From Marinibacterium profundimaris (GTDB lineage: Bacteria > Pseudomonadota > Alphaproteobacteria > Rhodobacterales > Rhodobacteraceae): a stretch of 64,000 bases of DNA. Below, piece after piece: positions 16,620 through 64,000 of the stretch (position 1 is the first letter of the stretch; the number at the start of each line of letters is the position of its first letter). The stretch lies in assembly GCF_002210095.1 (NCBI RefSeq), contig NZ_AQQR01000003.1, positions 372,001-436,000 of the forward strand, in the 5' to 3' direction. Under the pieces are notes generated by a model. The model saw only the letters and a program-made list of their open reading frames with translations, was not told the DNA's origin and searched no databases. The position numbers and the translations under genes were made by a program.

Positions 16620-16625
16620 TCCCCC

Positions 16626-46606: not shown

Positions 46607-47661
46607 TTCGACCTCGGATCCAGGAAGCGGTAGAGCAGGTCCGAGAAGATGTTCAGACCGACGAAGATCGCCCCGATCACGATGGTGCCCCCCAGCACGG
46701 AGTTCATGTCATTGGCCAGCAGCGACGTGGTGATGTAGCTGCCGATGCCGGGCCAGGCGAAGATGATCTCGGTCAGGACGGACCCCTCCAGCAGGTTGGC
46801 ATAGGCCAGCGCGATCACGGTGATCAGCTGCACGCGGATGTTGCGGAAGGCGTGGTGCCAGACCACCTTCCATTCCGACAGGCCCTTGACGCGGGCGGTG
46901 GTCACATATTCCGAACTCAGCTGCTCCAGCATGAAGCTTCGCGTCATACGGCTGATGTAGGCCATTGAATAATAGGCAAGAATGGACGCAGGCAGGATGA
47001 TATGGCTGAACGCGTCCTTGAAGACGGTGATGTTGCCGCGCAGCAGGCTGTCGACCAGCAACAGGCCGGTGATCGGCTCCACCAGGCCCTGGTAGAAGAT
47101 GCCCAGCCGCCCGGGTCCGGCCACCCATCCGAGGATACCGTAAAAGACCAGAAGCCCGACAAGGCCCAGCCAGAAGACCGGGATCGAATAGCCGATCAGG
47201 CCGACAAGACGGGCCAGCTGGTCGATCCAGGTGCCCTTGCGCACCGCGGCGACCACGCCCAGCGGCACGCCCAGGACCACGCCGATCAGCGTGCCCAGCG
47301 TGGCCAGTTCCAGCGTTGCGGGGAAGACGCGGCGGATGTCCTCGGCCACGCTTTGTCCCGTCCGGATCGAGGTGCCGAAATCGCCATGCAGCACGTCGCG
47401 CACGTAGATGCCGAACTGAACGATCAGCGGCTTGTCGAGGCCAAGCGCGATGAATGTCTCGTCGTATTGCTGTTGGGTGGCCCGCTCGCCGATGACGGCG
47501 AGAACCGGGTCGATCGGCATCACCCGTCCGATCATGAATGTCACGAACAGCAGGCCCAGAAGCGTGATCGCCACGGTGGCGAGCAGCCGGATGGACTTGC
47601 CCAGGAATGTGGTGTGGAGGGGCGCGGGGCGCCCCCCCTTGGGATCAGCGAGGGATGTCAC
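46603..47661 (-). CDS. Peptide-type ABC permease (DppB-like)
   Basis: A 352-residue permease with six helices, the first at about 20-45 (LLATVAITLLGLLFVTFMIGR), a periplasmic loop with ALGLDKPLIVQFGIYV, and the docking motif YVTTARVKGLSEWKVVWHHA. The GTG at 47661 lies four bases after the binding-protein stop; ATG alternatives further in would delete part of the first helix. It overlaps the DppC gene by ATGA. Confidence 0.92.
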   Translation of the reverse strand: MTSLADPKGGRPAPLHTTFLGKSIRLLATVAITLLGLLFVTFMIGRVMPIDPVLAVIGERATQQQYDETFIALGLDKPLIVQFGIYVRDVLHGDFGTSIRTGQSVAEDIRRVFPATLELATLGTLIGVVLGVPLGVVAAVRKGTWIDQLARLVGLIGYSIPVFWLGLVGLLVFYGILGWVAGPGRLGIFYQGLVEPITGLLLVDSLLRGNITVFKDAFSHIILPASILAYYSMAYISRMTRSFMLEQLSSEYVTTARVKGLSEWKVVWHHAFRNIRVQLITVIALAYANLLEGSVLTEIIFAWPGIGSYITTSLLANDMNSVLGGTIVIGAIFVGLNIFSDLLYRFLDPRSK

Positions 47662-47665
47662 GCGC

Positions 47666-49267: not shown

Positions 49268-49308
49268 CTGTCGGAACTCCCTGTTGGTTCTCTTTTTCAT
49301 GACTTTTG

Positions 49309-50361
49309 TCATTCTCCCCACGTCCGTTTCAGGACGCGCAACCAGTTACCATGCGTGACCTTCGCCAGCAGCGTGTCGTCCACGCCATGGGCCTGAAGGG
49401 CCGCCACAAGATTGGGCAGACCGGCGCAATCCCGGATCGGGCGCGGCACCAGAGAGCCGTCGAAATCCGATCCCAGACCGATCCGGTCCTCGCCCAGTCT
49501 TTCGACCAAGTGGTCAAAATGCCGGAGCAATATGTCAAGCTCGAAATCGTCATCCTTGCGTCCGTCGGGCCGGAGGAAGGCGCTTGCCAGGTTGATACCG
49601 ACCATCCCGTCGCTTTCGCGGATCATGTCCAGCTGGCGGTCGGTCAGGTTGCGCGCGTGATTGCAGACGGCCCAGGCGTTGGAATGGGTGGCCACCAGCG
49701 GCGCATCGGTGATCGCGGCCACGTCGTCGACACCCGCGGCGTTCAGATGCGACAGGTCGATCATGATCCTGAGCCGGTTGCACTCACGCACCAGCGCGCG
49801 CCCCAGATCGGTCAGCCCCGGCCCGATGTCGGGATCCGCCGGATAGCGGAACGGCACGCCATGGCCGAAAATCGTGTCCCGGCTCCAGACCGGGCCAAGC
49901 GATCGCAGGCCCCGCGCGTGCAATTCGTGCAGCACGGCAAAGTCCGGGTCGATCGCCTCGGCGCCCTCGGCATGCAGGACGGCGGCCAGCGGCTCGCCCG
50001 GCAGGGCCGCGGCGACCTCGGCCGCGGTGCGGCACAGCGTGATGGCCCCGGCCTGCTCCATCGCCTCCAGCGCGTCAAAGCCGCGCCGCGTCCAGTCCAG
50101 CGCAAAGCCCTGGTCCAGCGGCTCGGGCTTGGGCACGTCATAGGCGGCCAGTTTCATCTGCGCGTCACGGTCCGACCCGCCATCAGGGTTGGGCGTGAAG
50201 ACGGCGAAGAAACCGCCCCCCAGCCCGCCGCTTTGCGCCCTGGGCCGGTCGATATGGCCGTCGGGCAAGCCGTCGGCCAGTTGCCCGGGCGTCACCTGTC
50301 CGCGCATCACCCGCAGCACCGTGTCGTTATGTCCGTCGAAGAAAATCTGCTTGTCGATCAT
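49309..50361 (-). CDS. Membrane-dipeptidase family (M19) metallopeptidase
   Basis: A 350-residue zinc dipeptidase of the renal dipeptidase family, active on L-D and L-L dipeptides and some beta-lactams. The zinc ligands begin with DGHND (His11, Asp13), then the bridging Glu in HAEGAEAI, and histidines in IDLSHLN and VATHSN. There is no signal peptide, so it works in the cytoplasm on imported substrate. It lies 41 bases upstream of the binding-protein gene and is probably the first gene of that operon. Confidence 0.92.
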   Translation of the reverse strand: MIDKQIFFDGHNDTVLRVMRGQVTPGQLADGLPDGHIDRPRAQSGGLGGGFFAVFTPNPDGGSDRDAQMKLAAYDVPKPEPLDQGFALDWTRRGFDALEAMEQAGAITLCRTAAEVAAALPGEPLAAVLHAEGAEAIDPDFAVLHELHARGLRSLGPVWSRDTIFGHGVPFRYPADPDIGPGLTDLGRALVRECNRLRIMIDLSHLNAAGVDDVAAITDAPLVATHSNAWAVCNHARNLTDRQLDMIRESDGMVGINLASAFLRPDGRKDDDFELDILLRHFDHLVERLGEDRIGLGSDFDGSLVPRPIRDCAGLPNLVAALQAHGVDDTLLAKVTHGNWLRVLKRTWGE

Positions 50362-50569
50362 TCGTATTCCCGTTGCGGTTCGGCGCGGCCCGGACCGTTT
50401 CAACACTCGTCCGATACGCGTAGCATCGGTGACTGCCAACAGTTGACCCGGCGTCGCCCCGCCGCTTTCTTCTGCGCGCCCCTGCGGCCTGCGCCCTTTG
50501 CCTCGGATCCGGGCAGCGCCCGCCATGGCCGCCCCGCCCGATCCCCGCCCGTCCCCCGAAGGCCGGGCC

Positions 50570-52312
50570 TTACCCGATGTTGCGCGCCGCTTCGGTTGCT
50601 GCGGCGTCGACAACCCCGTCTGCTGACACGACGACGCCGAACAGCGCCCGCGCCTGCTCCGGCGTATACCGGCCAAGCCGCACGTCCTCGGCCACCAGAG
50701 CCGCCTCGCGGGTCATCGGATCGCCATAGCCGCCTCCGCCCGGCGTCGCCACGCGCACCCGGTCGCCCGCGGCCAGCGGGATGTCCTGCGCCTTCGACAG
50801 ATGCTCGGGCACGGTCTCGACCCCGCCCTGCGTCACCACGACCCGGTTCACCTGCCCATCCGCGCCGCCCAGCACGCCCTGCGGCCCGAAGCGCCCGTGA
50901 TCCATGACAAAGCTCGCCCGTGCCGTGCCCTTGCGCAGCTCGACCTCGTAGTCCAGACCGAAGCCGCCACGCTGCCGTCCCGCCCCGCCGGAGCCCTCGT
51001 GCAAGGCATAGCGGTGGTAGAGGACGGGGAACTGCTGCTCCATGATCTCGACCGGCGGCGCCTTCGAGATGCCGATGGTGGAGCACCCGTTCGAGATCCC
51101 GTCGCCCCCGGCCCAGCCGCCGTAACCGCCGCCGGAAATCTGGTACATCACGAAACTCCGCCCCTCCTCCGGCACCGATCCGCCCAGCGCGAAGTTGCCC
51201 GAAGAGCCTGCCGGAGCCGCCGTGACCCGATCCGGCAGCGCCTCGGCCAGCGCGACGAAAACCGCCTCGGCGATGCGCTGGCTTACCTCGGCCGCGCAGC
51301 CCGACACGGGCCGCGGATATTGCGCATCGAGGAAGGTGCCCTCGGGCCGGATCACCTCCAGCGGCTCGAACGCACCGGCCGAGATCGGGACATCGGGAAA
51401 GATATGCCGCGTGGCGAGGTAGACCGACGACATGGTCGTCGCCAGAACCGAGTTCATCGGCCCCGCGCAGGGCGGCGACGATCCGGCGAAGTCGAAGATC
51501 AGCCTGTCGCCCAATGCCTGAATGCTCAGCCGGATTTCCAGCGGTTCGTTCACCACCCCGTCGCTGTCGACATACGCCACCGAGGTATAGGTCCCCGGGG
51601 GTATCTCGCGGATCGAGGCGCGCATCTGCTCGGCGGCGCGCACCCGAAGCTCGGCGATCGCCTCCCGCACCGTGTCGTCGCCGTAGCGGTCCAGCAGCCG
51701 GGTCAGACGCGACTGTCCCACATAAAGAGCCGCCGCCTGCGCCTTCACGTCCCCGATCCGCTGGTCGGACACGCGGATGTTGGAACAGATGATGCCGTAG
51801 ATCTCGGGATCCAGCACGCCTTCCTTGAACAGCCGCACGGGCGGCAGGCGCAGCCCCTCCTGTTCCACCGCCGTCGCCGAGGCGGAAAACCCGCCCGGCA
51901 CCGCGCCCCCGGTATCGGGCCAGTGGCCGGTGTTCGACAGCCAGCAGAAGATCCGGCCATCGCGGTAGAACGGCATGGCAAAGCGCACGTCCATCAGGTG
52001 CGTCCCGCCCAGGTAGGGGTCGTTGACGATGTAGATGTCGCCGGGTTTCGGTGCCACCGCGCGGCCATCCGCGATCCATTCGATCAGCGTCCGCGTGGAA
52101 TACTGCATCGTGCCGACAAAGACCGGCAGGCCTTGCGACCCCTGCGCGATCAGCGACCCGTCCTCGGCCGAATAGATCCCGTCGGAGCGGTCATTCGCCT
52201 CGGCGATCACCGGCGAGAAGGCGGCGCGGGAAAAGCTCAGGTCCATCTCGTCGCAGACCTGCTGCAGGCCCGACTGGATGACCGACAGCGTGATCGGATC
52301 AAGCGTGCTCAT
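50570..52312 (-). CDS. Hydantoinase B / oxoprolinase family subunit
   Basis: A 580-residue HyuB-type subunit. Typical motifs are VIAEANDRSDGIYSAEDGSL, NDPYLGGTHLMDV, SAGAFEPLEVIRPEG and the C-terminal ATPGGGGYGDP. With the HyuA subunit it makes an ATP-dependent enzyme that opens cyclic amides (5-oxoproline, N-methylhydantoin) or, in the related acetone/acetophenone carboxylases, carboxylates ketones. It overlaps HyuA by ATGA. About 208 bases separate it from the dipeptidase, so transcriptional linkage to the peptide operon is possible but uncertain. Substrate not evident. Confidence 0.9.
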   Translation of the reverse strand: MSTLDPITLSVIQSGLQQVCDEMDLSFSRAAFSPVIAEANDRSDGIYSAEDGSLIAQGSQGLPVFVGTMQYSTRTLIEWIADGRAVAPKPGDIYIVNDPYLGGTHLMDVRFAMPFYRDGRIFCWLSNTGHWPDTGGAVPGGFSASATAVEQEGLRLPPVRLFKEGVLDPEIYGIICSNIRVSDQRIGDVKAQAAALYVGQSRLTRLLDRYGDDTVREAIAELRVRAAEQMRASIREIPPGTYTSVAYVDSDGVVNEPLEIRLSIQALGDRLIFDFAGSSPPCAGPMNSVLATTMSSVYLATRHIFPDVPISAGAFEPLEVIRPEGTFLDAQYPRPVSGCAAEVSQRIAEAVFVALAEALPDRVTAAPAGSSGNFALGGSVPEEGRSFVMYQISGGGYGGWAGGDGISNGCSTIGISKAPPVEIMEQQFPVLYHRYALHEGSGGAGRQRGGFGLDYEVELRKGTARASFVMDHGRFGPQGVLGGADGQVNRVVVTQGGVETVPEHLSKAQDIPLAAGDRVRVATPGGGGYGDPMTREAALVAEDVRLGRYTPEQARALFGVVVSADGVVDAAATEAARNIG

Positions 52313-54372
52313 GCCGTGGCTCCCAGGGTGATGAGGATGTTGCCGTCCTTGTCCTGCCCGGCCCGGGCGCCGGGTTCCAGAACGATGGTCGTGTCCATCT
52401 GTTCGATGATCGCGGGACCGGTCAGCGTGGCGTTCATGGGCAGGTGATCGCGCCAGTAGACGGGTGTGTCGTGCCAGCCGTCGAACCAGACGCGGCGGTG
52501 CCCGGTCAGGGCCGCGTCCAGCGTTTCCCTGCGCGCGGCGGCGTCGATCAGCAGGCCAAGGTCGATCTCGGGCCGCCGCCCGATGACCGAGCAGTTGACG
52601 TTGACCAGCGCCGGCCGGATCTCGGGCAGATCCACCTGGAAGCGCCGGTAATAGGCCGCCGCGAACAGGGCGCGCAGGTCCTCGATCGAGGGCGTCTCGC
52701 TCTCCAGGGGCACGCGCAGCAGGTGGGTCTGTCCGATGAACTGCATGTCGACGCTGGGCAGGATGCGAATGTCGCTGACCTCCACCGCCTCGGCGGCGAT
52801 GGCGGCGCACCCGGCGGCGATCTGATCGGCCAGCAGGGCATGGACCGTCTCGATCTCCACCGCATCCAGCGGCCGGTTCACCGTGTTCACGAAATCATGG
52901 CGCAGGTCGGCCACCACGCATCCCAGCGCATTGGTGATGCCGGGCCGCGCGGGCACCAGCACATGCGGCACGCCCAGCTCGCGCGCGATGGCGCTGGCAT
53001 GAAGCGGCCCGGCGCCCCCGAAGGCAAAGAGCGCGAAATCCCGTGGATCCTCGCCCAGCGAAACCGACACCATGCGCACCGCATCCGCCATCTTCGCCGT
53101 GGCGATCCGCAGCACCGCCTCGGCCGCCGCTTCCGCATCCAGCCCCAGCGGCGCGCCCAGCTCTTTGGCAAAGATCCCCCGGATCTCCTCCAGCGTGACC
53201 GGCGCCTCGGCGGTGGTGAATTTCGCCGGATCCATCCGGCCCAGCAGCAAGTTGGCATCCGAAATCGTGGGCTGCGTCCCGCCGCGCCCGTAGCAGATCG
53301 GCCCGGGGGTCGACCCGGCGCTGTCCGGCCCGACCTGCAACAGCCCCGCCGCGTTGACCTTCGCGATGGAGCCGCCGCCGGCCCCCACTGTGCGCACATC
53401 GACCATCGGCACATGGATCGGCATGGCATATTCGATCTCGATCTCGTGGCTGACCGCCGGTTCCGCGCCCCGGATCATTGCCACATCGGTGCTGGTGCCG
53501 CCCATGTCATAGGTCAGCAGGTCCAAAATTCCTGCCCGCCGCCCCGTATAGGCCGCCGCCATCACGCCCGAGGCCGGGCCCGACATCACCGTCTTGGCCG
53601 CCTCGCGCGCCACGATCCGGGCCGAGACCATGCCGCCGTTGCCGTTCATAACCAGCAGATCGTGCGCATAGCCCCTCTGCGCCAGCTTGTCGGCCAGCCG
53701 TTCGACATAACGGCGCAGCAGCGGCTGGACCGAGGCATTGACCGCCGCCGTCACGCCGCGCTCGTATTCGCGGCTTTCCGACAAAAGCGCATGGCCCATG
53801 GTGATGTTCCCGTTGGGCCAGATCTCGGCCGCGATCTCGGCGGCGCGCAATTCGTGCGCGGGGTTGGCATAGGCATGCAGGAAATGGATCACCAGCGCCT
53901 CGCAGCCGGTGTCGACCAGCGCCTGCACCGCCGCGCGCAGGGCCTCCTCGTCCAGCGCCACCAGCTCGGCGCCCGAGGCATCCATCCGCTCGCGCACCTC
54001 CATGCGCAGATCGCGCGGGATCAGCGGGCGGAAGTCGCCCTTCATCCCGTAGGCATTGGGCCGCGTGCGCCGGCCCAGCTCCAGCACGTCGCGGAAGCCC
54101 ATCGTGGTGATCAGCCCGGTCTTGCACAGCCGCCGTTCCAGCACCGCGTTGGTCGTGGTGGTCGTGCCATGCACGATCAGATCCAGCGCCGCGACATCCG
54201 CCCCGGCCGCGTCCAGCGCGCCCACCACCCCGACCGACTGATCCTCAAGCGTGGTCGGCACCTTGGCCAGCCGCACCGTCGACGCGCGGCTTTCGAACAG
54301 GACCAGGTCGGTGAAGGTCCCGCCGACGTCAATGCCGGCCACGATACCGGAGCTTGCGGACTTGCTGGTCAT
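52309..54372 (-). CDS. Hydantoinase A / oxoprolinase family ATPase subunit
   Basis: A 687-residue HyuA-type subunit. The ATPase signature IDVGGTFTDLVLF is at the N-terminus, with VHGTTTTTNAVLERR, GPASGVMAAAY, YDMGGTSTDVAMI and FAFGGAGPLHA further in. It phosphorylates the carbonyl of the cyclic substrate in relatives. GAGGG six bases before the ATG at 54372 supports the start. It is divergent from the 6-hydroxynicotinate-reductase-like operon, sharing a ~390-base control region, which makes a role in the same pathway plausible, for example opening the lactam ring of a reduced nicotinate. Confidence 0.92.
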   Translation of the reverse strand: MTSKSASSGIVAGIDVGGTFTDLVLFESRASTVRLAKVPTTLEDQSVGVVGALDAAGADVAALDLIVHGTTTTTNAVLERRLCKTGLITTMGFRDVLELGRRTRPNAYGMKGDFRPLIPRDLRMEVRERMDASGAELVALDEEALRAAVQALVDTGCEALVIHFLHAYANPAHELRAAEIAAEIWPNGNITMGHALLSESREYERGVTAAVNASVQPLLRRYVERLADKLAQRGYAHDLLVMNGNGGMVSARIVAREAAKTVMSGPASGVMAAAYTGRRAGILDLLTYDMGGTSTDVAMIRGAEPAVSHEIEIEYAMPIHVPMVDVRTVGAGGGSIAKVNAAGLLQVGPDSAGSTPGPICYGRGGTQPTISDANLLLGRMDPAKFTTAEAPVTLEEIRGIFAKELGAPLGLDAEAAAEAVLRIATAKMADAVRMVSVSLGEDPRDFALFAFGGAGPLHASAIARELGVPHVLVPARPGITNALGCVVADLRHDFVNTVNRPLDAVEIETVHALLADQIAAGCAAIAAEAVEVSDIRILPSVDMQFIGQTHLLRVPLESETPSIEDLRALFAAAYYRRFQVDLPEIRPALVNVNCSVIGRRPEIDLGLLIDAAARRETLDAALTGHRRVWFDGWHDTPVYWRDHLPMNATLTGPAIIEQMDTTIVLEPGARAGQDKDGNILITLGATA

Positions 54373-54761: not shown

Positions 54762-56339
54762 ATGAGCGAGTCCGACAAGGCGTCCACCCAGGCCGGCACG
54801 CACTCGCCCTCCAAAACGGACGCCGACACGCCGCGCCCGGCGCCGGAGAAGATCCGCTGCGACGCCTGCCCCGTCATGTGCTACATCGCCGAGGGCCGCT
54901 CGGGCGCCTGCGACCGCTATGCCAATGACGCAGGCCAGCTGATCCGGCTCGACCCCCTGACGATCCTGGAAAACCGCGCGGCAGCCCGGCAGCCCGAAGA
55001 CGACACGCCCCGGCTGGTGCCCTTCCTCGAGACCGAATGGGACGGCGCCATCGTCGGCGGCAACCGCCAGTTCGTCACCGCCATCGGCGCGGGCACCACC
55101 TACCCCGATTACAAGCCCGCCCCCTTCATCGTCGCCTCCGATTACGAGGGCGTCGACATGGTCACCGTGGTGACCGAGGGGATCTTTTCCTATTGCGGCG
55201 CCAAGGTGAAGATCGACACCGACCGCCACCTTGGCCCCGAACGCGCCCCCGTGCGCGCGGACGGAGAGATCGTGGGCCATGTCACCACCTCGGAATACGG
55301 CAGCCAGATGCTCTCGCTCGGCGGGGTCGAACACCTGACCGGCGGATCGAAGAAGGAAGGCCGCGTGACCTGCGCCACCCTCCTTGCGCTCTGCAACAGT
55401 CAAAGCGTGGATCTTGTCATCGACGGCGGCGCCGAGGTGACCGTGGGCGCGGGCAAGGCGCCGGTGGTCAACGGCCAGGTCGAGGAACGGATGCGCGTCG
55501 GCTGCGGCTCGGCCACGGTGGGGATCTTCGCCGCGCAATGGCAGGGGTTGGTGGACGAGGTCGTCGTCGTCGACGATCACATCACCGGCGTGATGAGCGA
55601 ACACCAGGCCGGCAAGGTCATCGGCTGGCAGCCCACCGGGATCAGGATCCTCGGCCGCCGCTCCACCCCCGGCCGCTATTTCCAGGTGGCCGAGCCCGGC
55701 ACCGGCTGGGGCGGCACGAACATGACCGACCCGCTGACGATCCTCGGGCCCTGGAACCCCAAACACGCGCGGCCCGGCCTGTCGCTGCTGATGGTCTCGA
55801 CCACCGGCGAGCACGCCGCCTATTACGAGCTGGACGAGGATCTGCGCCCCGTGCAGCTGGAGATCCCCGAGAGGCTCCTGCCCTCGACCCGCCGGATCGA
55901 AGAGAATTGCGAACCCGCGCTCTGCTCCGTCCTGTTCATGGGCGGCGCGGGCGGCAGCCTGCGCGCCGGGGTCACGCAGAACCCCGTGGGGCTGACCCGC
56001 TCGGTTCAAAAGGCGCTGACACGGGTGACCGTCGGCGGCGCGCCGGCGTATATATGGCCCGGCGGCGGCATCACCCTGATGGCCGACGTCACGCAGATGC
56101 CCGAGAACGCCTTTGGCTACGTCCCCACACCGGCGCTTGTCGCGCCGATCGAATTCACCCTTCGCCGCAGCGATTATGCGGCCCTGGGCGGTCACATGGA
56201 TTACGTCGTGCCCCTGTCCGACGCCCTGTCGGGTGTCCCCGGACGGCAAAGCGACCATGTCCTTGCCGGCCGCCGCGATGTCGGGCGCAGGGGCGATACC
56301 CCCTGGCCCGTCCAACCCCTGACCGGACAACAGAAATGA
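54762..56339 (+). CDS. 6-hydroxynicotinate reductase-like iron-sulfur protein
   Basis: A 525-residue protein of the family annotated as 6-hydroxynicotinate reductase, known from anaerobic nicotinate fermentation (6-hydroxynicotinate to 1,4,5,6-tetrahydro-6-oxonicotinate). A cysteine cluster near the N-terminus, RCDACPVMC...C (Cys33, Cys36, Cys40, Cys50), probably binds an iron-sulfur cluster. The following ~450 residues are rich in Gly and Val with GSATVGIFAAQ and GGSKKEGRVTCATLLALC. The start at 54762 follows AAGGG. It overlaps the UPF0280 gene by ATGA. The family assignment is from memory of the conserved gene group; biochemical proof for aerobic relatives is limited. Confidence 0.75.
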   Translation: MSESDKASTQAGTHSPSKTDADTPRPAPEKIRCDACPVMCYIAEGRSGACDRYANDAGQLIRLDPLTILENRAAARQPEDDTPRLVPFLETEWDGAIVGGNRQFVTAIGAGTTYPDYKPAPFIVASDYEGVDMVTVVTEGIFSYCGAKVKIDTDRHLGPERAPVRADGEIVGHVTTSEYGSQMLSLGGVEHLTGGSKKEGRVTCATLLALCNSQSVDLVIDGGAEVTVGAGKAPVVNGQVEERMRVGCGSATVGIFAAQWQGLVDEVVVVDDHITGVMSEHQAGKVIGWQPTGIRILGRRSTPGRYFQVAEPGTGWGGTNMTDPLTILGPWNPKHARPGLSLLMVSTTGEHAAYYELDEDLRPVQLEIPERLLPSTRRIEENCEPALCSVLFMGGAGGSLRAGVTQNPVGLTRSVQKALTRVTVGGAPAYIWPGGGITLMADVTQMPENAFGYVPTPALVAPIEFTLRRSDYAALGGHMDYVVPLSDALSGVPGRQSDHVLAGRRDVGRRGDTPWPVQPLTGQQK

Positions 56340-57193
56340 GCGATTTCACCGAAACCCAGACCACCAGCGTCAGCACCGATGGGCGGCGCATGCGCCTGGC
56401 CCACGGTCCCATCGACATGATCCTCACCGCCGAGGGCCCGGCCCCGGCCCGCCAGGCCGCCTTCGACCGGGCGCGGCTGGCCTTCCTGCCCGTGCTGGAT
56501 GAGCTCGCGCAGGAACTTCCCCGCCTGCGCGCCCCCACCGGCCCCGCGCCGACGGGCAGCGTCGCCGGGCGCATGACCCGCGCCGCCGCGCTTTTTGCGC
56601 CGCGCTTCGTCACGCCGATGGCTGCCGTCGCGGGCAGCATCGCCGACCACATCCGCGAGGCGGTGCTGGTCCAGGGTCACGGGCTGACGCAGCTGATCGC
56701 GAACAACGGCGGCGACATCTCGCTCTGGCTCGCCAGGGGCGCGGTGACGGCGGCGATCTGCGACGATCCCATCTCGGGCCGTTCGGGGGGCAAAATCTCG
56801 ATCTCGGCGCGCTCGGGCATCGGCGGCGTGGCCACCTCGGGCTGGCGCGGGCGCTCCTTCTCGATGGGCATCGCCGACGCGGTGACCGTGTTGGCCGACC
56901 GGGCCGCCACCGCGGATGTCGCAGCCACGCTGATCGCCAATGCCGTCGACCTGCCCGACCACCCCGGCATCCTGCGCCAGCCCGCGAACGAATTGTCGCC
57001 CGACAGCGACCTGGGCGCGCGCCTTGTCACCACCGATGTCGCGCCCCTGTCCGTCACCGACCGGGCACAGGCGATCGAGCGTGGCTATGCCCTGGCCCAG
57101 GAGTACATCGCACACGGTCTGATCCGTGCCGCATACCTGTCGCTGGAAGAGACCCGCGCCGTCGCCGTCGAGAAGGAAATCCTGCATGCCTGA
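56336..57193 (+). CDS. UPF0280 family protein (ApbE-like fold)
   Basis: A 285-residue protein of UPF0280, a family distantly related to ApbE flavin transferases. Conserved features are PMAAVAGSIADHIREAV, LTQLIANNGGDISLWL and GIGGVATSGWRGRSFSMGIADAVTV. In ApbE-like folds these glycine-rich and acidic residues bind nucleotide and metal, but no activity is established for this family. ATGA overlap with the reductase and an 8-base overlap with the first DUF1185 gene show an obligate operon, so it probably matures or supports one of these proteins. Confidence 0.8.
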   Translation: MSDFTETQTTSVSTDGRRMRLAHGPIDMILTAEGPAPARQAAFDRARLAFLPVLDELAQELPRLRAPTGPAPTGSVAGRMTRAAALFAPRFVTPMAAVAGSIADHIREAVLVQGHGLTQLIANNGGDISLWLARGAVTAAICDDPISGRSGGKISISARSGIGGVATSGWRGRSFSMGIADAVTVLADRAATADVAATLIANAVDLPDHPGILRQPANELSPDSDLGARLVTTDVAPLSVTDRAQAIERGYALAQEYIAHGLIRAAYLSLEETRAVAVEKEILHA

Positions 57194-57770
57194 GCCCGAG
57201 ATCCGCAAGACCGCCCTCCAGCTGGAAACGATCTGGCACGAGGGCGGCCCGGTGGCCGAGACGCCGCTGAAGAAAGGCGCCGCCATCGCCGTGATCCGCA
57301 ACCCCTTCGCGGGCAGCTACCATGCCGAGATCGCCGGTTTCATGGATGATCTCAAGCCGCTCGGCCTGCGCATGGCGCAAGAGCTGATCGATGCGCTCGG
57401 CGGGGATCCCGCCGCCATCCAGGGCTACGGCAAGGGCGCCATCGTCGGCACCGCCGGAGAGCTGGAACACGGCGCGCTCTGGCACGTGCCGGGCGGCTAT
57501 TCCATGCGCGAGCTGATCCCCGAGAGCATGGCCATCGTGCCCTCGACCAAGAAGATCGGCGGGCCGGGCACCCGGCTGGACGTGCCGATCACCCATGCCA
57601 ACGCCTCCTACGTGCGCTCGCATTTCGACGCGATGGAGGTCGGGCTGAGCGACGGGCCGAAGGCCGCCGAGATCGCGCTGGTTCTGGTCATGACCACCGG
57701 ACCGCGGGTGCATGCCCGTGTCGGCGGGCTGGCCCATGACGACGTGAAGGGCGAGGACGGTCTGCGCTGA
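57186..57770 (+). CDS. DUF1185 (amino-acid synthesis family) protein, copy 1
   Basis: A 194-residue protein of the DUF1185 / amino-acid synthesis family (PF06684). It has IAVIRNPFAGSYH, AIQGYGKGAIVGTAGELEHGA, PSTKKIGGPGTRLDVPI and HVRVGGLAHDD-like C-terminal sequence. Structures in this family show a compact alpha/beta fold, but the reaction is not settled. The start codon lies inside the UPF0280 end. Its paralogue of identical length follows immediately, so the two probably form a heteromer. Confidence 0.8.
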   Translation: MPEPEIRKTALQLETIWHEGGPVAETPLKKGAAIAVIRNPFAGSYHAEIAGFMDDLKPLGLRMAQELIDALGGDPAAIQGYGKGAIVGTAGELEHGALWHVPGGYSMRELIPESMAIVPSTKKIGGPGTRLDVPITHANASYVRSHFDAMEVGLSDGPKAAEIALVLVMTTGPRVHARVGGLAHDDVKGEDGLR

Positions 57771-58354
57771 TGCCCACGCGGATCCGCAAGATCGTCACCC
57801 TGGCCGAGACCACCGAGCGCGAGATGGGCCACGCGATCACGCCGCCCGCGCGCAAGGCCGTCGCGGCGGCGGTGATCGCCAACCCCTGCGCCGGTCGCTA
57901 TGTGCAGGATCTCTCCGAGCTGATCGAGACCGGCGCCAGGCTGGGCGACCTGCTGGCGCGCGAGGCGATGGCGCTGCTGCGGGTCGGGCCGGAGGCGATC
58001 CAGGGCTACGGCAAGGCCGCGCTGGTCGGCGAGAGCGGCGAGCTGGAACATGCGGCCGCCCTGCTCCACCCGTCCCTCGGCGCGCCTCTGCGCGCGGCCA
58101 TCGGCGGCGGTGCGGCGCTGGTGCCGTCGTCCAAGGCGATGGGCGGGCCTGGCGACGTGATCGACGTGCCGCTGGGCCACAAGGATGCCGCCTATGTCCG
58201 CAGCCATTTCGACGGGATGCGCCTGCGGGTGTCCGACGCGCCGCGCCCCGACGAGATCGTCGTCGCCGTAGCCCTGACCACGGGCGGTCGCCCCCTGCCC
58301 CGCGTCGGCGGGCTGACCCACGACACGGCCGAGGGCAAGGACGGGCTCAGGTAA
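57770..58354 (+). CDS. DUF1185 (amino-acid synthesis family) protein, copy 2
   Basis: A 194-residue paralogue of the preceding protein, with matching blocks AVIANPCAGRYV, AIQGYGKAALVGESGELEHAA, PSSKAMGGPGDVIDVPLGHKDAAYVRSH and a shared VGGLTHD ending. Its ATG overlaps the previous stop by one base (TGATG). It differs from copy 1 mainly in the N-terminal 25 residues and in the middle loop (LLHPSLGAPLRAAIGGG). It is the last gene of the operon; the next gene, a MarR regulator, is convergent. Confidence 0.8.
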   Translation: MPTRIRKIVTLAETTEREMGHAITPPARKAVAAAVIANPCAGRYVQDLSELIETGARLGDLLAREAMALLRVGPEAIQGYGKAALVGESGELEHAAALLHPSLGAPLRAAIGGGAALVPSSKAMGGPGDVIDVPLGHKDAAYVRSHFDGMRLRVSDAPRPDEIVVAVALTTGGRPLPRVGGLTHDTAEGKDGLR

Positions 58355-58495
58355 CGGCCCTTCCATCGGCGCCGCAGCATGCGGCCGCGTCCCTCGCCGC
58401 CTTCACTACCGGCCGTGGACACGGGATCGCGCCACCGCGTAAGCTGAACAAAACGCGGTATCGGGATTGCAACCGGCCGGCCTGCCGAAACCCGG

Positions 58496-58927
58496 TCAGG
58501 ACATCTTGCGCAGAAGTGCCACCATCATCGCCCGCTCATGCGGCTCCAGCGGATCCAGCGTCTCGGCGGTCACGCCCTGCATGATCGGCAGCATCTCGTC
58601 CAGCAGGGCGCGCCCCGCCTCGGTCGAGGACAGAAGATAGCGGCGCTTGTCATCCGGATCCGCCCGGCTTTCGATCAGCCCGCGTTCCTTCAGCCGCGAC
58701 ACCACGCCCTTGATCGTCGGCGCGTCCATCATGACCATCCGCCCCAGCGCGTTCTGCGACACCGGGCCTTCCTCTTCGACCAGACGGAACAGGGTGGAGA
58801 ACTGCACCGCGGTCAGTTTTCCCTGCATCCGTTCCGAACAGATCGCCATGTGCCGCTGGTAGGCCCGGCGCAGCAGGAAGCCGACCTGCTCGTCGAGACG
58901 ATAGCTGTCAGAGGGAGAGGGAGACAT
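58496..58927 (-). CDS. MarR-family regulator (NicR-like position)
   Basis: A 143-residue winged-helix regulator. It starts MSPSPSDSYRLDEQVGFLLRRAYQRH; the DNA-binding part includes VSQNALGRMVMMDAPTIKGVVSRLKERGLI and the wing RADPDDKRRYLLSS. CGGAG five bases before the ATG supports the start. In Pseudomonas a MarR protein, NicR, represses nicAB and binds 6-hydroxynicotinate. The neighbours here suggest the same type of control, but only by context. The partial regulator at the right edge is a close relative over the shared N-terminal segment. Confidence 0.9.
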   Translation of the reverse strand: MSPSPSDSYRLDEQVGFLLRRAYQRHMAICSERMQGKLTAVQFSTLFRLVEEEGPVSQNALGRMVMMDAPTIKGVVSRLKERGLIESRADPDDKRRYLLSSTEAGRALLDEMLPIMQGVTAETLDPLEPHERAMMVALLRKMS

Positions 58928-58978
58928 GGCAACTCCGGCTGGGATCGTTTCCGTCGAAGCATGAAGATCGAGGCCCGG

Positions 58979-59239
58979 TCAACCGGGCATGTGGGTCAAA
59001 GCCCTGACGCACCGGCCTTTCGCCTGTTCTCCGGGCGTCCGCCAGGGGCACGGCCCCGGCAGGGTCGTTTGCAGGGCCACGACCTGGGTCCGAGGCGCGG
59101 CAAGCCATGCGCGCGCGGGACAGCCTTGTGGCCCCGGACGGGGCAGTCGCCACGGACAGGACAGACGCCGCCACGCCATCCTGCCAACGCGCCGGGCCAC
59201 CGCACCGAAGACGAACAAGATCAAGACCACGGCGCGCAC
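58979..59239 (-). CDS. Candidate small membrane protein upstream of marR
   Basis: A possible 86-residue product from a GTG at 59239, with AGGA seven bases upstream. The N-terminal VRAVVLILFVFGAVARR is a short hydrophobic helix, but the rest is Arg/Pro/Ala-rich and looks like chance sequence. It lies between the 42-codon frame and marR on the same strand. I give it little weight. Confidence 0.18.
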   Translation of the reverse strand: MRAVVLILFVFGAVARRVGRMAWRRLSCPWRLPRPGPQGCPARAWLAAPRTQVVALQTTLPGPCPWRTPGEQAKGRCVRALTHMPG

Positions 59240-59248
59240 GCCCAATTC

Positions 59249-59377
59249 CTAAGCGGGCGTCCGATGTTCCAGCACGCCGTCGTGCCCGCCGTGACGGACC
59301 TCGACGCGGAAAGCCGCAGGGTCGCGGGCCCCGGACCCACCGTAAGACTCTGGAATAAAGTCCAAAATCAAGGCCAT
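59249..59377 (-). CDS. Candidate 42-residue protein with a strong ribosome binding site
   Basis: An ATG at 59377 preceded by GCGGAGGACTTCTCTC, with GGAGG about nine bases upstream, opens a 42-codon frame starting MALILDFIPESYGGSG and ending GVLEHRTPA. The composition is protein-like and differs from nearby chance frames. It could be a small protein, a leader peptide for the marR transcript or the start of a decayed gene. No family recognised. Confidence 0.35.
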   Translation of the reverse strand: MALILDFIPESYGGSGARDPAAFRVEVRHGGHDGVLEHRTPA

Positions 59378-59448
59378 GAGAGAAGTCCTCCGCCAAACCC
59401 CGTCCGCACGCGTGCAGGACCAAATCTCTCATCCATCCCAGTTTTCAT

Positions 59449-59464
59449 TTGTATGCACCCATAC
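59449..59464. promoter_or_regulatory. TTGTATGC dyad, possible MarR operator
   Basis: TTGTATG-CACC-CATAC contains perfect 5-bp arms (GTATG/CATAC). The half TTGTATGC also occurs, reversed, at 54716-54723 before the reductase operon. The two sites are both within a few hundred bases upstream of genes proposed for one pathway. Confidence 0.45.
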
Positions 59465-59599
59465 TTTGCGCTCCCATCATCCTGTCCTTGCCACAGGGCC
59501 GATCCGCGGCACATGCTGCACCCGGCAGGCAGGGGGACCGGCAACAGGGAGCAATCGGGATGCGGTGCAGCATGCGGCGGACAGTGAACGGGGCCCTTG

Positions 59600-60088
59600 A
59601 TGCCTGAGGCCCCCGCACCGCTGTCCCTTACCGTCAACGACGCCGCCGTCACGCTCGATCTGCCTCAGGGCACGACGCTGCTGGAAGCGCTGCGCGCCGA
59701 CCTTGGCCTGCACGGTCCGAAATACGGCTGCGGCTATGGCCAGTGCGGTGCCTGCTCGGTCCTCGTCGACGGTCAGGTGGCCCGCGCCTGCGTGATGCCC
59801 GCCAGCGCCGCCAGCGGACGCGCGGTGACAACGCTCGAAGGGCTGGGCCGGGCCGACAGCCCGCACCCCGTCCAGCGGGCCTTCATCGAGGCGGAGGCCG
59901 CGCAATGCGGCTATTGCCTCAACGGCATGATCCTGCAGACCGTCGCCCTGCTGCAGGCGGTGCCAGACCCGGACGAGGCCACGATCCGCCGCGCCCTGCG
60001 TCACAACCTCTGCCGCTGCGGCACCCATATCGAGATCCTGAAGGCCGTGCGCCTCGCCGCCCGCTACATGGCGGAGCAGACATCGTGA
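59600..60088 (+). CDS. [2Fe-2S] subunit of a NicA-type molybdenum hydroxylase
   Basis: A 162-residue subunit with two [2Fe-2S] clusters. Ligands are Cys44, Cys49, Cys52 and Cys64 (GCGYGQCGAC) and Cys103, Cys106, Cys138 and Cys140 (CGYCLNG...CRC). It pairs with the large subunit through a GTGA overlap. There is no FAD-subunit gene, as in nicotinate dehydrogenase NicAB and isoquinoline oxidoreductase IorAB, where electrons leave through cytochromes. P. putida NicA is of similar length. The ATG at 59600 is preferred to a TTG one codon earlier. Confidence 0.9.
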   Translation: MPEAPAPLSLTVNDAAVTLDLPQGTTLLEALRADLGLHGPKYGCGYGQCGACSVLVDGQVARACVMPASAASGRAVTTLEGLGRADSPHPVQRAFIEAEAAQCGYCLNGMILQTVALLQAVPDPDEATIRRALRHNLCRCGTHIEILKAVRLAARYMAEQTS

Positions 60089-63000
60089 CCCGCCCCGCCA
60101 TCACCATCTGGCGCCACGGACAGGCCGGCACGCCCGAGCCCCTGCTGGACATCGCCGCCGACGGCCGGGTCACCGGATACACCGGCCATGTCGACCTGGG
60201 CACCGGCCTGCGCACCGCCATGGCCCAGATCGTCGCCGAAGAGCTCGACATCGCCCCCGGACAGGTCTCCATGGTCATGGGCGACACGGCGAGCACGCCG
60301 GATCAGGGGCCGACCATCGCCTCGGAATCCATCCAGATCGCCGCCGTGCCCCTGCGCCAGGCCGCAGCCCAGGCCCGCGCGGTGATCGCGGGGCTGGCCT
60401 CTGCCCGCCTGAACGCCGGGATCGACGACCTCGATCTCCGCGACGGCATGATCGGCACCGACGCGGCCCGCCTTCCCATTGCCGATCTGCTCACGGGCCC
60501 GCCCGTCAGCCTCCAACTCGACCCGGACACAGCCGTCAAACCCGCCTCCGACTACCATCTCGTCGGCCGGCACCTGCCCCGGGTGGACCTGGCCGGCAAG
60601 GCCACCGGCGCCTGGACCTACGTGCATGACGTGGCGGTTCCGGGGATGCTCCATGGCCACGTGATCCGGCCACCTTACGCCGGGCGCGACAGCGGCCCCT
60701 TCATCGGCCGGTCCCTGATCGAGGTCGACGAGGACGCCGTTTCCGGCATGGCGGGGTTCGTGGCGCTGGTCCGCAAGGGCGATTTCCTGGGCGTCGTGGC
60801 CGAGCGAGAAGGCCAGGCCCGCGCCATCGCCGAGGCCCTGCCCGTCCGCTGGGCCACGCCGCCCGACCTGCCGGACCTGTCGGACATCCCCGGCACCCTG
60901 CGCGACCTGCCGTCCGAGAAACGCATGCTGGCAGATCGCGGCGACGTGGACGGGGCGCTGGAGCGCGCCGCCACGACACTCACCCGCAGCTATGCCTGGC
61001 CCTGGAACCTGCACGGGTCCATCGGCCCCTCCTGCGCGGTGGCCGACTGGCGTGAGGGGCGAGTGACGATCTGGTCCGGCACCCAGAACCCGCACATGCT
61101 GCGCGCCGATATCGCCCGGCTGATGGACCTGCCCGAAACCGCCGTCGACATCGTCCGCCACGAGGCCGCCGGCTGCTTCGGCCGCAATTGCGCCGATGAC
61201 GTCTGCGGCGACGCGGCGCTGCTGTCGCGCGCCACAGGCCGCCCCGTCCGCGTGCAGCTGACGCGCGAGCAGGAGCATCTGTGGGAACCCAAGGGCGCCG
61301 CGCAGCTGATGGACGTGACCGGCGGGCTGGATGCGAACGGCAATTTCGACGTCTACGATTTCGAAACCCGCTATCCGTCGAACCGCGGTCCCAACCTCGC
61401 GCTGCTGCTGACCGGCGCCATCGATCCCGCGCCGCAGCCCTGCGACATGGGCGACCGCACCGCGATCCCGCCCTACCGCATCCCCAACCTGCGCGCCGCC
61501 GTGCATGACATGGCGCCCATCGTCCGCGCCAGCTGGTTCCGGGGCGTCTCGGCCATGCCGAACACCTTCGCGCATGAATGCTTCATCGACGAGCTTGCCG
61601 CCGAGGCCGGCGAGGACCCCGTCGCCTACCGCCTGCGCCACGTCGACGATCCCCGCACCGCCGACCTGATCCGGCGCACCGCCGAGGACGGCGGCTGGCA
61701 GCCCGGACGCGCCCCGCGCCTGACCCGGCAGGGCCAGATCGCCACCGGCCAGGGCTTTGCCCATGCCACCTATGTCCACGGCGCCTTTCCCGGGGTCGCC
61801 GCCGCCCAGGCCGCCTGGATGGCCGAGGTCACCGTCAACCGCGACACCGGAGAGGTCATCCTCGACCGCATCACCGTTGCCCAGGATCACGGGCTGGCGA
61901 TCAACCCCGAAGGGGTGCGCCACCAGATCCACGGCAATGTCGTCCAGTCGATCAGCCGCGCCATGGGCGAAGACACCCGCTTTGACCGCACCGGCGCCCG
62001 CGACGCGGAATGGGGCAGCTATCCGATTGCCCGGTTCGAGGATCTGCCCGAGATCCGCGCGATCCTCATGGAGCGCCCGGAGGAGCCGCCTTTGGGTGTC
62101 GGCGAAAGCGCCTCTGTCCCCTCGGCCGCCGCCATCGCCAACGCGATCTTCGACGCCACCGGCGTGCGGATGCGAGAGCTGCCTTTCACCCCCGAACGGG
62201 TCAAGGCCGCGCTGGACGGCCAGCCGCTGCCCCGTGGCCTGCCCGCGCCCGCCGACACGGCACCGCCGCGCTGGCGCCGACTGGCCACCGGGGTCGGCGC
62301 GGCGCTTGCCGGCGGGCTGATGGCCAGCGCCGTGGGCCTTGCCATCCGGGCCGAAATCCCGCGCGTGCCCCGCCCCGACAACATCTGGTCCGCCGAGACG
62401 GTGGAGCGCGGCCGCCAGCTTTTCGCCGCCGGAGCTTGCGCCGTCTGCCATACCGCCGAGGGGGGCGTTCCGCTGGTCGGCGGCCGCCCGATGGAAACCC
62501 CCTTCGGCACGGTCTACAGCACCAACCTCACGCCCGATCCCGACACCGGCCTCGGCGCCTGGTCCTACCCGGCCTTCGCCCGTGCCATGCGCGAAGGCGT
62601 GTCGCGCGACGGCAGCCACCTCTACCCGGCCTTTCCCTATACCGCCTTCGCGAAGATGACCGACAGCGACCTGCAGGCGCTTTATGCCTACATCCAGTCG
62701 CTGGACCCGGTGCAGGCCGACACCCCGCCGGCCAGCATGATCGCCCCCGTCAACCTGCGCCCTTCCATGGCGGCCTGGAACGCGCTTTACCACGATGCCA
62801 CGCCCTTCACCCCGGACCGCGCGCAATCCGAGCTCTGGAACCGGGGCGCCTACCTTGTCGAGGGCGTCGGCCATTGCGCCGCCTGCCACAGCCCGCGCAA
62901 CGCGCTTGGCGCCGAACGCGGCGGGGCCGCGCATCTGTCGGGCGGCATGGTCGACGGCTGGCTGGCCCCGGCGCTGAACGGCACCGGCCCCGCGCCGCTG

Positions 63001-63555
63001 GACTGGACCGAGGCCGATTTCCTCGCCTATCTCCGCGACGGCGTCTCGCCCCGTCATGGCGCCGCCGGCGGCCCGATGGCCCCGGTGGTGGCCGAGCTTG
63101 CCGCGCTCCCCGAGACCGACCTGCGGGCGATGGCGCATTACCTCGCCTCGCTGAACGACACAGGCAAGGACAGATCCGACGCCGCAGCGCCTCTCGACGC
63201 CCTCGCGCTCGACCAGCCGCTGGAGATGGCCACCGGCCCTGCCGCGCGCCTCTTCCGGGCAAGCTGCGGAGCCTGCCACATCACCGGGCCGGTGCCTTCG
63301 GCCACCGCCGCACGGGTGCCGCTGGCCCTGTCGAGCGCCGTGCATGCCGACCGCCCCGACAGCGTCATTCGCGCGGTGATCGACGGGCTTCCCGCCGTGG
63401 GCCGCCCCGACCCGCGCGCCATGCCCGGCTTCGGATCCGCGCTGACCGACGACCATATCGCCGCCCTTGCCCGCTTCCTGCGCCAGACGCTCGCCCCCGA
63501 CAAACCGGCCTGGGACGGCATCACCGAGGCCATCGGCCGCGCCCGCCAGCCCTGA
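60085..63555 (+). CDS. NicB-type molybdenum hydroxylase large subunit with membrane helix and three cytochrome c domains
   Basis: A 1156-residue fusion, close in size to P. putida NicB. Residues 1 to about 715 are the molybdopterin-binding hydroxylase, with VDLGTGLRTAMAQIVAEEL, AAGCFGRNCADD, SWFRGVSAMPN and the catalytic Glu in PLGVGESASVP. A hydrophobic helix at about 733-753 (GVGAALAGGLMASAVGLAI) leads to three c-type haem sites, CAVCH (from Cys785), CAACH (from Cys931) and CGACH (from Cys1061). The layout implies hydroxylation in the cytoplasm and haems in the periplasm, passing electrons to the respiratory chain. The GTG start at 60085 overlaps the small subunit. Nicotinate is the likeliest substrate from context; other N-heterocycles or aldehydes remain possible. 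Confidence 0.9.
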   Translation: MTRPAITIWRHGQAGTPEPLLDIAADGRVTGYTGHVDLGTGLRTAMAQIVAEELDIAPGQVSMVMGDTASTPDQGPTIASESIQIAAVPLRQAAAQARAVIAGLASARLNAGIDDLDLRDGMIGTDAARLPIADLLTGPPVSLQLDPDTAVKPASDYHLVGRHLPRVDLAGKATGAWTYVHDVAVPGMLHGHVIRPPYAGRDSGPFIGRSLIEVDEDAVSGMAGFVALVRKGDFLGVVAEREGQARAIAEALPVRWATPPDLPDLSDIPGTLRDLPSEKRMLADRGDVDGALERAATTLTRSYAWPWNLHGSIGPSCAVADWREGRVTIWSGTQNPHMLRADIARLMDLPETAVDIVRHEAAGCFGRNCADDVCGDAALLSRATGRPVRVQLTREQEHLWEPKGAAQLMDVTGGLDANGNFDVYDFETRYPSNRGPNLALLLTGAIDPAPQPCDMGDRTAIPPYRIPNLRAAVHDMAPIVRASWFRGVSAMPNTFAHECFIDELAAEAGEDPVAYRLRHVDDPRTADLIRRTAEDGGWQPGRAPRLTRQGQIATGQGFAHATYVHGAFPGVAAAQAAWMAEVTVNRDTGEVILDRITVAQDHGLAINPEGVRHQIHGNVVQSISRAMGEDTRFDRTGARDAEWGSYPIARFEDLPEIRAILMERPEEPPLGVGESASVPSAAAIANAIFDATGVRMRELPFTPERVKAALDGQPLPRGLPAPADTAPPRWRRLATGVGAALAGGLMASAVGLAIRAEIPRVPRPDNIWSAETVERGRQLFAAGACAVCHTAEGGVPLVGGRPMETPFGTVYSTNLTPDPDTGLGAWSYPAFARAMREGVSRDGSHLYPAFPYTAFAKMTDSDLQALYAYIQSLDPVQADTPPASMIAPVNLRPSMAAWNALYHDATPFTPDRAQSELWNRGAYLVEGVGHCAACHSPRNALGAERGGAAHLSGGMVDGWLAPALNGTGPAPLDWTEADFLAYLRDGVSPRHGAAGGPMAPVVAELAALPETDLRAMAHYLASLNDTGKDRSDAAAPLDALALDQPLEMATGPAARLFRASCGACHITGPVPSATAARVPLALSSAVHADRPDSVIRAVIDGLPAVGRPDPRAMPGFGSALTDDHIAALARFLRQTLAPDKPAWDGITEAIGRARQP

Positions 63556-63722
63556 GCGCCCCCGCCCCGGGAACACTGACTTCCCGAAAGGCTTTCCGGA
63601 AGCCAGCGAAACACCGGATTCCGCGCATCCTGTTAGCGCCCGAAAAGTAAATAAAACTCCGAAAACGGAAAGATTAGCCATTCTCGGAAATACCGGTGGA
63701 AAATAGATTGAAATCAGGAATG

Positions 63723-63755
63723 AATTGATCGCAATTTCAGTTGCACAAATCAATT
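63723..63755. promoter_or_regulatory. AT-rich dyad before the second MarR gene
   Basis: AATTGAT (63723-63729) and ATCAATT (63749-63755) are complementary arms; CGCAA and TTGCA inside extend the symmetry partly. It lies about 65 bases before the GTG of the regulator in a clearly AT-rich stretch, which suggests an operator or promoter. Confidence 0.45.
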
Positions 63756-63820
63756 TCGCGGTCTACGTCCCCCTGCGCAGCTCAGCCAGCACGACACTGG
63801 CCGCACGAAAGGGAGACAGC

Positions 63821-64000
63821 GTGGGCGAAAAATCCGGAGCAGAATCAGACGCAAAGGCAACCGCTGACGACCTGCGCGGATTTTCCCTTGAAGATCAGGT
63901 CGGCTTCTTGCTGCGCAAGGCCCACCAGCGCAGTTCCCTGTTCTTTTCCGATCTGGTGCCCTCAGATCTGACACCGACGCAGTTCTCGATCCTGTTCCGT
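63821..64000 (+). CDS. MarR-family regulator, N-terminal part (cut by window edge)
   Basis: An open frame of 60 codons begins at a GTG with GGGAG five bases upstream and runs off the window. After a ~20-residue polar start it reads LEDQVGFLLRKAHQRSSLFF and later LTPTQFSILFR. These align with LDEQVGFLLRRAYQRHMAIC and LTAVQFSTLFR of the MarR protein at 58.5-58.9 kb, so it is a paralogue. Two related MarR genes thus flank the NicAB-type pair. Confidence 0.82.
   Translation, partial: MGEKSGAESDAKATADDLRGFSLEDQVGFLLRKAHQRSSLFFSDLVPSDLTPTQFSILFR

Follow-up and report, generated by a model that had tools for sequence, protein, structure and literature searches.

In Pseudomonas putida, nicotinate is hydroxylated by NicAB, an enzyme of one 2Fe-2S subunit and one molybdenum subunit with three haems c, which is regulated by the MarR-family protein NicR and leads into the NicC route. 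Enamidase, a ring opener, works without ATP, and hydrolysis of the enamine gives its product, 2-formylglutarate. An aerobic route via ring reduction, modelled on that of Eubacterium barkeri, has been reported for Azorhizobium caulinodans and for Bradyrhizobiaceae (PMC3511419). Strain SG-6C of the latter grows on nicotinate and on 6-hydroxynicotinate, and its cluster encodes a 6-hydroxynicotinate reductase (HNR) 42% identical to that of E. barkeri (PMC3511419). Here, we describe a locus of Marinibacterium profundimaris (Rhodobacteraceae), located in a stretch of 64,000 nucleotides (contig NZ_AQQR01000003.1, positions 372,001 to 436,000; hereafter, the window) of a 6.15-Mb draft genome, in which an HNR homologue is encoded together with a UPF0280 protein, two DUF1185 proteins, a molybdenum hydroxylase and a pair of hydantoinase-type subunits, HyuA and HyuB. 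The locus is a conserved nicotinate operon of known kind, and the bacterium very probably degrades nicotinate by ring reduction. We consider it fairly probable that this is a nicotinate-catabolism cluster of the ring-reducing kind in which the ring opener has been swapped and UPF0280 serves as the partner of HNR. The genes concerned are the following.

50570-52312, minus strand: HyuB, metal-binding hydrolytic subunit (PF02538, 528.1 bits).
52309-54372, minus strand: HyuA, ATP-binding subunit of the ATP-dependent lactamase/hydantoinase type (PF01968, 290.6 bits).
54762-56339, plus strand: HNR, 6-hydroxynicotinate reductase homologue, 525 amino acids (N-terminal CxxCxxxC...C motif; annotated plasmid relatives).
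56336-57193, plus strand: UPF0280/COG2122 protein, 285 amino acids (NF003322, 303.8 bits, cut-off 290; PDB 2O34, E=5.9e-9; co-occurrence).
57186-57770, plus strand: first DUF1185 (AA_synth) protein (PF06684, 224.9 bits, cut-off 27; model matches 3BYQ and 2QTP).
57770-58354, plus strand: second DUF1185 (AA_synth) protein, SPO0826/2QTP type (PF06684, 233.6 bits, cut-off 27; 2QTP, E=3.7e-82).
58496-58927, minus strand: first MarR-family regulator (PF12802/PF01047).
59600-60088, plus strand: NicA-like subunit with two 2Fe-2S domains (PF01799, PF00111).
60085-63555, plus strand: NicB-like molybdenum subunit with three haem-c motifs (PF20256, PF02738 (MoCoBD), cytochrome c domains).
From ~63725, plus strand: second MarR-family regulator, ending 285 bases past the window (L003:725-1285; PF01047, 53.5 bits).

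The first-pass annotation had described HNR, UPF0280 and the two DUF1185 genes as coupled by overlaps, and the overlaps read from the sequence are indeed 4 bases (ATGA), 8 bases and 1 base (TGATG), respectively. The NicAB-type hydroxylase, whose two genes overlap in GTGA, and the two MarR genes placed after that operon were likewise recovered with their coordinates and families. What had been missed is the HyuA/HyuB pair (4-base ATGA overlap, start read from sequence), which lies directly upstream of HNR and divergent from it, and with it the ring-opening step. The combination of hydroxylation and ring reduction in an aerobe, also proposed at that stage, is supported but not new because the same kind of cluster is in print (PMC3511419). 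In the Azorhizobium/SG-6C cluster, the genes for the first three steps accompany HNR together with two proteins described there as of unknown function (PMC3511419); Bradyrhizobium loci such as L131 suggest that these two are UPF0280 and DUF1185. The window resembles that cluster in these respects and differs from it in having HyuA/HyuB for enamidase and two DUF1185 genes.

The neighborhoods of HNR homologues were compared in two sets, one of 40 loci (L051-L090) and one of 80 (L091-L170, the best 80 of at least 370 relatives), which overlap in part; L106 and L071 seem to be one contig, and L069 and L070 belong to one genome. Full flanks, meaning 7.5 kb or more on each side, were available for 34 of the 40 and 62 of the 80 loci, and gene types were assigned by best tblastn match. 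Of the full-flank loci, 33/34 and 60/62 contain a molybdenum hydroxylase. It was of the flavin adenine dinucleotide (FAD)-containing type in 26/34 and 46/62 and NicAB-like in 6/34 and 14/62; one more locus has both types, and 1/34 and 2/62 have neither. The NicAB type is thus the minority, and a reductase without NicAB, named in the first pass as a refuting result, is common; this does not refute the pathway. HNR clustered with a molybdenum hydroxylase, the mark of the reductive nicotinate pathway via 1,4,5,6-tetrahydro-6-oxonicotinate (THON), is also what the window contains. Nicotinamidase was found in 9/34 and 17/62 and ferredoxin-NADP reductase in 5/34 and 24/62 full-flank loci; a 199-amino acid protein near HNR homologues matches the nicotinamidase structure PDB 2WT9 (E=4.2e-76), and a 398-amino acid amidohydrolase matches the solved enamidase, PDB 2VUN (E=9.7e-111). 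In 12 of 16 Bradyrhizobium loci, NicAB, HNR, UPF0280, DUF1185 and enamidase occurred together in the stretch fetched. On plasmid pLA6_008 (Paracoccaceae strain La 6), the order is nicA, nicB, HyuB, HyuA, hnr, UPF0280, two DUF1185, nicR, where nicA, nicB, hnr and nicR are the names given in the record and the others were assigned by tblastn; the record annotates HyuB/HyuA as acetophenone-carboxylase-like, and UPF0280 and the DUF1185 pair as three hypothetical genes. A betaproteobacterial plasmid carries an amidohydrolase 70% identical to enamidase, ferredoxin-NADP reductase, HNR, UPF0280 and two DUF1185, as well as an ATP-binding cassette (ABC) transporter and a NicAB pair. Nicotinate as the substrate is, therefore, well supported, and the relatives' neighborhoods and the annotated plasmid also support NicAB-type hydroxylation and ring reduction by HNR as originally suggested.

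The hydroxylase of the window has the NicAB architecture, that is, a small 2Fe-2S subunit and a molybdenum subunit with C-terminal haem-c motifs (CxxCH at residues 785, 931 and 1061), and thereby, and in the MarR genes nearby, it resembles the NicAB/NicR system of P. putida. Sequence comparison was confined to HNR-linked Bradyrhizobium and same-genus NicAB: the NicA-like protein is 77-78% identical to HNR-near copies in genomes G001 and G002 of the same genus, and the molybdenum part of the NicB-like protein is 57-60% identical to HNR-linked Bradyrhizobium NicB, compared with 28% identity to a neighboring paralogue. From the gene content, order, conservation and co-occurrence observed, we infer that NicAB would convert nicotinate to 6-hydroxynicotinate, with electrons passing via the three haems c to the respiratory chain, and that, unlike in P. 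putida, hydroxylation would be followed by reduction of the ring, HNR yielding the lactam THON. In relatives, the electrons for HNR would probably come from NADPH through ferredoxin-NADP reductase. The genes for the latter beside HNR (L197:13066-13893, L196:12917-13690) suggest a low-potential electron supply in aerobes.

A search of 61 genomes, the window's own and those of relatives, gave 22 with an HNR homologue, and a sample of 299 genomes of the phylum, which again included the window's own, also gave 22 (at most four candidates scored per genome in this second search); one of the latter 22, a 75-residue match with E=4e-4, was excluded from later counts. To determine the distribution of the two candidate ring openers, 42 genomes with HNR were compared with 32 without it, the latter hand-picked from those lacking an HNR match, 25 of the 32 from the window's family. 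Of the 42 HNR-positive genomes, 22 had an enamidase orthologue (identity 64-100%; one copy is incomplete and lies at the end of its contig), and outside these a single match of 42% was found (G296). HyuA orthologues (at least 61%), the decayed copy of G016 (53%) included, also occurred in 22 of the 42; the next best paralogue reached at most 47%, and HNR-negative genomes at most 41%, both among the matches listed, which were ranked by E-value so that a short orthologue fragment could escape. All 42 HNR-positive genomes contained enamidase or HyuA, only two of them both (G182, G252), and none of the 32 HNR-negative genomes contained either (for HyuA, again among the matches listed). For this mutual exclusivity, a Fisher test gave p=4.5e-10, with kinship ignored. 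Within the window's own family, 10 genomes have enamidase, 11 have HyuA and none has both. The full-flank loci comprised 11 with HyuA, 9 with enamidase and 14 with neither of the 34; 10, 27 and 25, respectively, of the 62; and none with both (L110 and L151, with enamidase matches below 60%, were scored as lacking it). In the window's genome, no enamidase match was found at E<=1e-30, and HyuAB is present instead. On a tree of HNR (41 rows, quick method; G016, with decayed HNR and HyuA, was left out here and kept in the counts), the 39 single-state genomes show three changes of state; the swap has, therefore, probably occurred more than once, but the independent evidence comes down to a few such events. 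In 15 of the 22 genomes with HyuA, its gene and HNR share a contig and are no more than 12 kb apart.

Of 23 HyuA copies scanned, a number that includes the window and duplicates, 22 keep the ATP motifs (DxGGTxT, DMGGT, GxxPGP), and the metal motif of HyuB (His-x2-Asp-x21-His) is kept in 20 of 20. HyuB matches chain B of caprolactamase 6YRA (E=1.9e-81), with His104, Asp107 and His129 (start Met uncounted) aligned to His99, Asp102 and His124 of CapB. Such ATP motifs and the metal-ligand pattern have been described for caprolactamase (PMC8453981), and OplAB hydrolyses delta-valerolactam with ATP, which means that the family opens six-membered lactams (PMC11033972). Like CapAB and OplAB as described there, the pair in the window comprises two full-length subunits with ATP motifs and metal ligands. 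Unlike CapAB, it scores below the caprolactamase cut-offs (HyuA 495.7 bits with NF050156, HyuB 312.4 bits with NF050157; cut-offs 1000 each), lacks the Cys-Cys pair of the CapB pocket and has HNR as its genomic partner. Taken together, HyuA/HyuB has probably taken the place of enamidase as the ring opener, as judged from sequence. Because THON is a six-membered lactam, its opening by HyuA/HyuB at the expense of ATP would give an enamine hydrolysing to 2-formylglutarate and ammonia, the same ring opening that enamidase would perform ATP-free in the other HNR genomes. No paper joining enamidase and hydantoinase was found among open-licence PMC papers, nor one joining hydantoinase with 6-hydroxynicotinate, molybdenum and reductase.

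The association of HNR with UPF0280 and DUF1185, which the first-pass annotation had suggested surveying across genomes, proved to be close. UPF0280 was present in 41 of the 42 HNR-positive and in none of the 32 HNR-negative genomes; the one exception is a genome 82% complete in which HNR is cut by a contig end. It lies at most 400 bases downstream of HNR in 38/40 and 75/78 loci (78 of the 80 have 1 kb downstream), an adjacency far beyond chance, and DUF1185 is encoded no more than 3.5 kb after HNR, in the same direction, in 36/40 and 67/74 loci (74 of the 80 have 3 kb). UPF0280 also accompanies a different protein. None of 398 genomes from the window's phylum has DUF39 (PF01837), but among 199 genomes of a second phylum (that of L165, whose record is titled Acidobacteria), seven have DUF39 and one has full-length HNR, and UPF0280 occurs in exactly those eight (8/8; weakest match E=5.6e-5) and in 0/191 others, with at most 12 UPF0280 and 8 HNR candidates scored per genome. 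Its gene is within approximately 0.5 kb of that for DUF39 in 7/7, on the same strand in six. Six of the seven HNR-profile matches in that phylum were other proteins aligned over profile positions 2-55 only, where the N-terminal Cys motif lies, and were not counted. The fact that UPF0280 presence follows HNR/DUF39 in two phyla is notable. In Desulfovibrio, homocysteine synthesis requires COG2122/UPF0280 together with DUF39; the two have nearly the same fitness pattern (r=0.98), and the homology of COG2122 to ApbE seemingly stops short of the flavin site (PMC5764234). Because of this co-occurrence and the Desulfovibrio fitness data, UPF0280 is read as a helper of both HNR and DUF39; by analogy, it would serve HNR as COG2122 serves DUF39, and it is most likely a dedicated HNR partner, for maturation or for cofactor or sulfur loading. 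As in the DUF39-COG2122 pairs of Desulfovibrio and methanogens (PMC5764234), a UPF0280/COG2122 gene accompanies one partner protein; here, that partner is HNR. The idea that HNR might be a relative of DUF39 (HcyBio), raised by the common UPF0280 partner and a V-T-x-G-x-F-x-x-C look-alike seen by eye, was tested and homology was not found with these two profiles, both so narrow that distant homology may escape them: hhalign gave a probability of 0.1 and E=0.56, the trimmed cores scored 15.2 compared with 40 column-shuffled controls (mean 17.3, maximum 24.9), and one other setting gave 23.1, without shuffles of its own.

Several observations weigh against the interpretation as a ring-reducing nicotinate cluster with a swapped ring opener. 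HyuA is farther from HNR or on another contig in 6 of the 22 genomes, and in G032 it neighbors UPF0280 on a contig that lacks HNR; two genomes retain both ring openers, and neither opener is within the stretch in 14/34 and 25/62 loci. The 42 genomes are not 42 independent tests because the exclusivity rests on approximately three switches. Because enamidase is ATP-free, the ATP cost of a replacement has no explanation. In addition, the ferredoxin-NADP reductase of the relatives has no homologue in the window. Scores at about one-half (HyuA) and one-third (HyuB) of the caprolactamase cut-offs mean that hydantoins or other lactams also fit the family. HyuA is about as near N-methylhydantoinase (7HK5, E=1.5e-119) as caprolactamase (6YRA, E=1.2e-108), and a dipeptide-type ABC transporter and an M19 dipeptidase come after HyuAB in the window. 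HyuA/HyuB could, then, act on another compound (a hydantoin, oxoproline or another lactam) within a genuine nicotinate locus, THON being opened by an unrecognized enzyme, possibly the DUF1185 pair, which is nearly always close to HNR. However, DUF1185 occurs with either ring opener and, therefore, cannot explain the loss of enamidase where HyuAB occurs, and the annotation of the 25.5 kb around HyuAB on pLA6_008 includes no dipeptide transporter, so that we regard this explanation as rather unlikely.

It seems very unlikely that the pathway acts on some other pyridine or on a derivative of nicotinate (e.g., trigonelline or homarine) and not on nicotinate itself. Such a substrate would account for the Rieske-type oxygenase, of a kind able to N-demethylate, in 2/34 and 9/62 full-flank HNR loci (Sagittula, Pseudosulfitobacter) and for the sarcosine-oxidase-like genes (named by eye) downstream of the window on L003; but a search of the window for that Rieske gene gave no homologue, the nicotinamidase, enamidase and nic-type genes of relatives point to nicotinate as the core entry, and a Rieske demethylase would still channel nicotinate into the same core. 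No paper title describing such a cluster for homarine or trigonelline was found. As to UPF0280, overlapping adjacent genes travel jointly on plasmids, and mutants in the Methanosarcina orthologue are rescued by extra sulfide, cysteine or homocysteine (PMC5764234), as might be expected if UPF0280 and HNR were operon neighbors inherited together without functional dependence. We hold this to be quite unlikely: at L128 and L145, the two checked of three such loci (the third being L149), UPF0280 is not near HNR and yet is kept elsewhere in the genome, and the same family is tied to another partner, DUF39, in another phylum, a need shown genetically in Desulfovibrio (PMC5764234).

A swapped ring opener and UPF0280 as the partner of HNR thus remain the preferred interpretation. 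A broader version is more tentative and, in our estimate, somewhat doubtful: UPF0280 may be a dedicated maturation factor for a wider class of catalytic-cysteine redox enzymes that includes DUF39 and HNR, and the HNR-UPF0280-DUF1185 core may be freely combined with either of two different hydroxylases and with either of two ring openers that are unrelated to each other, one of which would be a new ATP-dependent enamide lactamase. ATP-dependent opening of THON, if true, would be a new function for a large and poorly assigned enzyme family. If UPF0280 matures both DUF39 and HNR, its action on one would explain the other, and because it is tied to two otherwise different enzymes in two phyla, its role is accessible by co-expression. 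Ring-reducing vitamin B3 clusters are common in marine and soil alphaproteobacteria and are also plasmid-borne.

The name HNR was taken from annotated plasmid relatives (61-85% identical), most of which are called 6-hydroxynicotinate reductase; HNR at this identity is carried by 26 of 72,556 plasmid records. The relatives are ~60-87% identical, apart from one decayed copy (54%). Cys33, 36, 40, 50, 145, 248 and 383 are invariant in 16 aligned homologues. Neither Pfam and NCBIfam (at 0.001) nor the PDB (at 10) yielded a match for the protein, and its AlphaFold model is poor (mean pLDDT 56.4; best PDB structure match E=1.0), so that nothing was built on it. A weak Pfam match to GCV_T_C in 12 of the 16 members (best E=0.0005; 17.4 bits for the HNR of the window, cut-off 25.9) was set aside. 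The copy of the cluster at L068, in genome G016, is decaying, with stop codons in HNR, UPF0280 and HyuA, and in G001 the cluster is seemingly present twice, on two contigs (L069 and L070), with the same gene order where the two can be compared.

UPF0280 passes the curated NCBIfam model NF003322 (PRK04334 group), and the DUF1185 pair passes the gathering score of PF06684 and shares family and fold with 3BYQ and 2QTP (PMC2954203) and with TgnF and HcdD (PMC7913881). At E<0.001, the only matches of the DUF1185 model (mean pLDDT 85.9) are the two known structures of this family. The second protein is closely homologous to SPO0826 of Silicibacter pomeroyi (2QTP), the gene neighbors of which encode a branched-chain-type ABC transporter (PMC2954203). 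Such a transporter was also seen near HNR in relatives; unlike these, the window and 19 kb beyond it contain no homologue of the branched-chain-type binding protein. The roles of UPF0280 and DUF1185 were initially regarded as undescribed, which is not entirely so, as COG2122 (PMC5764234) and TgnF (PMC7913881) have been described; for DUF1185, the sources cited here give no catalytic step. TgnF, the homologue in A. baylyi, is cited as stimulating aldehyde oxidation in trigonelline degradation by the authors of PMC7913881, who saw no such stimulation for their own homologue, HcdD. A function as cyclic amidase (Toblerone fold) is not supported, its sole basis being a weak Foldseek match (rank 49, E=0.28). 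The DUF1185 pair is likely accessory, and the MarR proteins would act as regulators.

Rieske-type oxygenase genes near HNR are located at L197:17583-18653 and L198:17577-18647 and also at L052, L091, L092 and others; an N-demethylase channelling trigonelline into the pathway is a possibility raised by them. After HyuB, the window (44086-50526) encodes the dipeptide-type ABC transporter with a binding protein (~44086-49321) and the M19 dipeptidase (~49309-50526), and the cluster of Sagittula stellata (L197) likewise borders on genes for an M20 peptidase and a peptide ABC transporter; uptake of a peptide or N-acyl form of nicotinate would be a guess from these adjoining genes. Two further molybdenum hydroxylases, an FAD-2Fe-2S-Mo set and a 2Fe-2S-Mo pair, directly follow the second MarR gene (L003:1526-8589, 0.5 to 7.6 kb past the window end), and another set is located upstream (~16800-20400 of the window), which makes the region rich in such enzymes. 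Farther downstream (L003 ~9150-18900), sarcosine-oxidase- and dimethylglycine-dehydrogenase-like genes, named by eye from their translations, accompany an AraC-type regulator.

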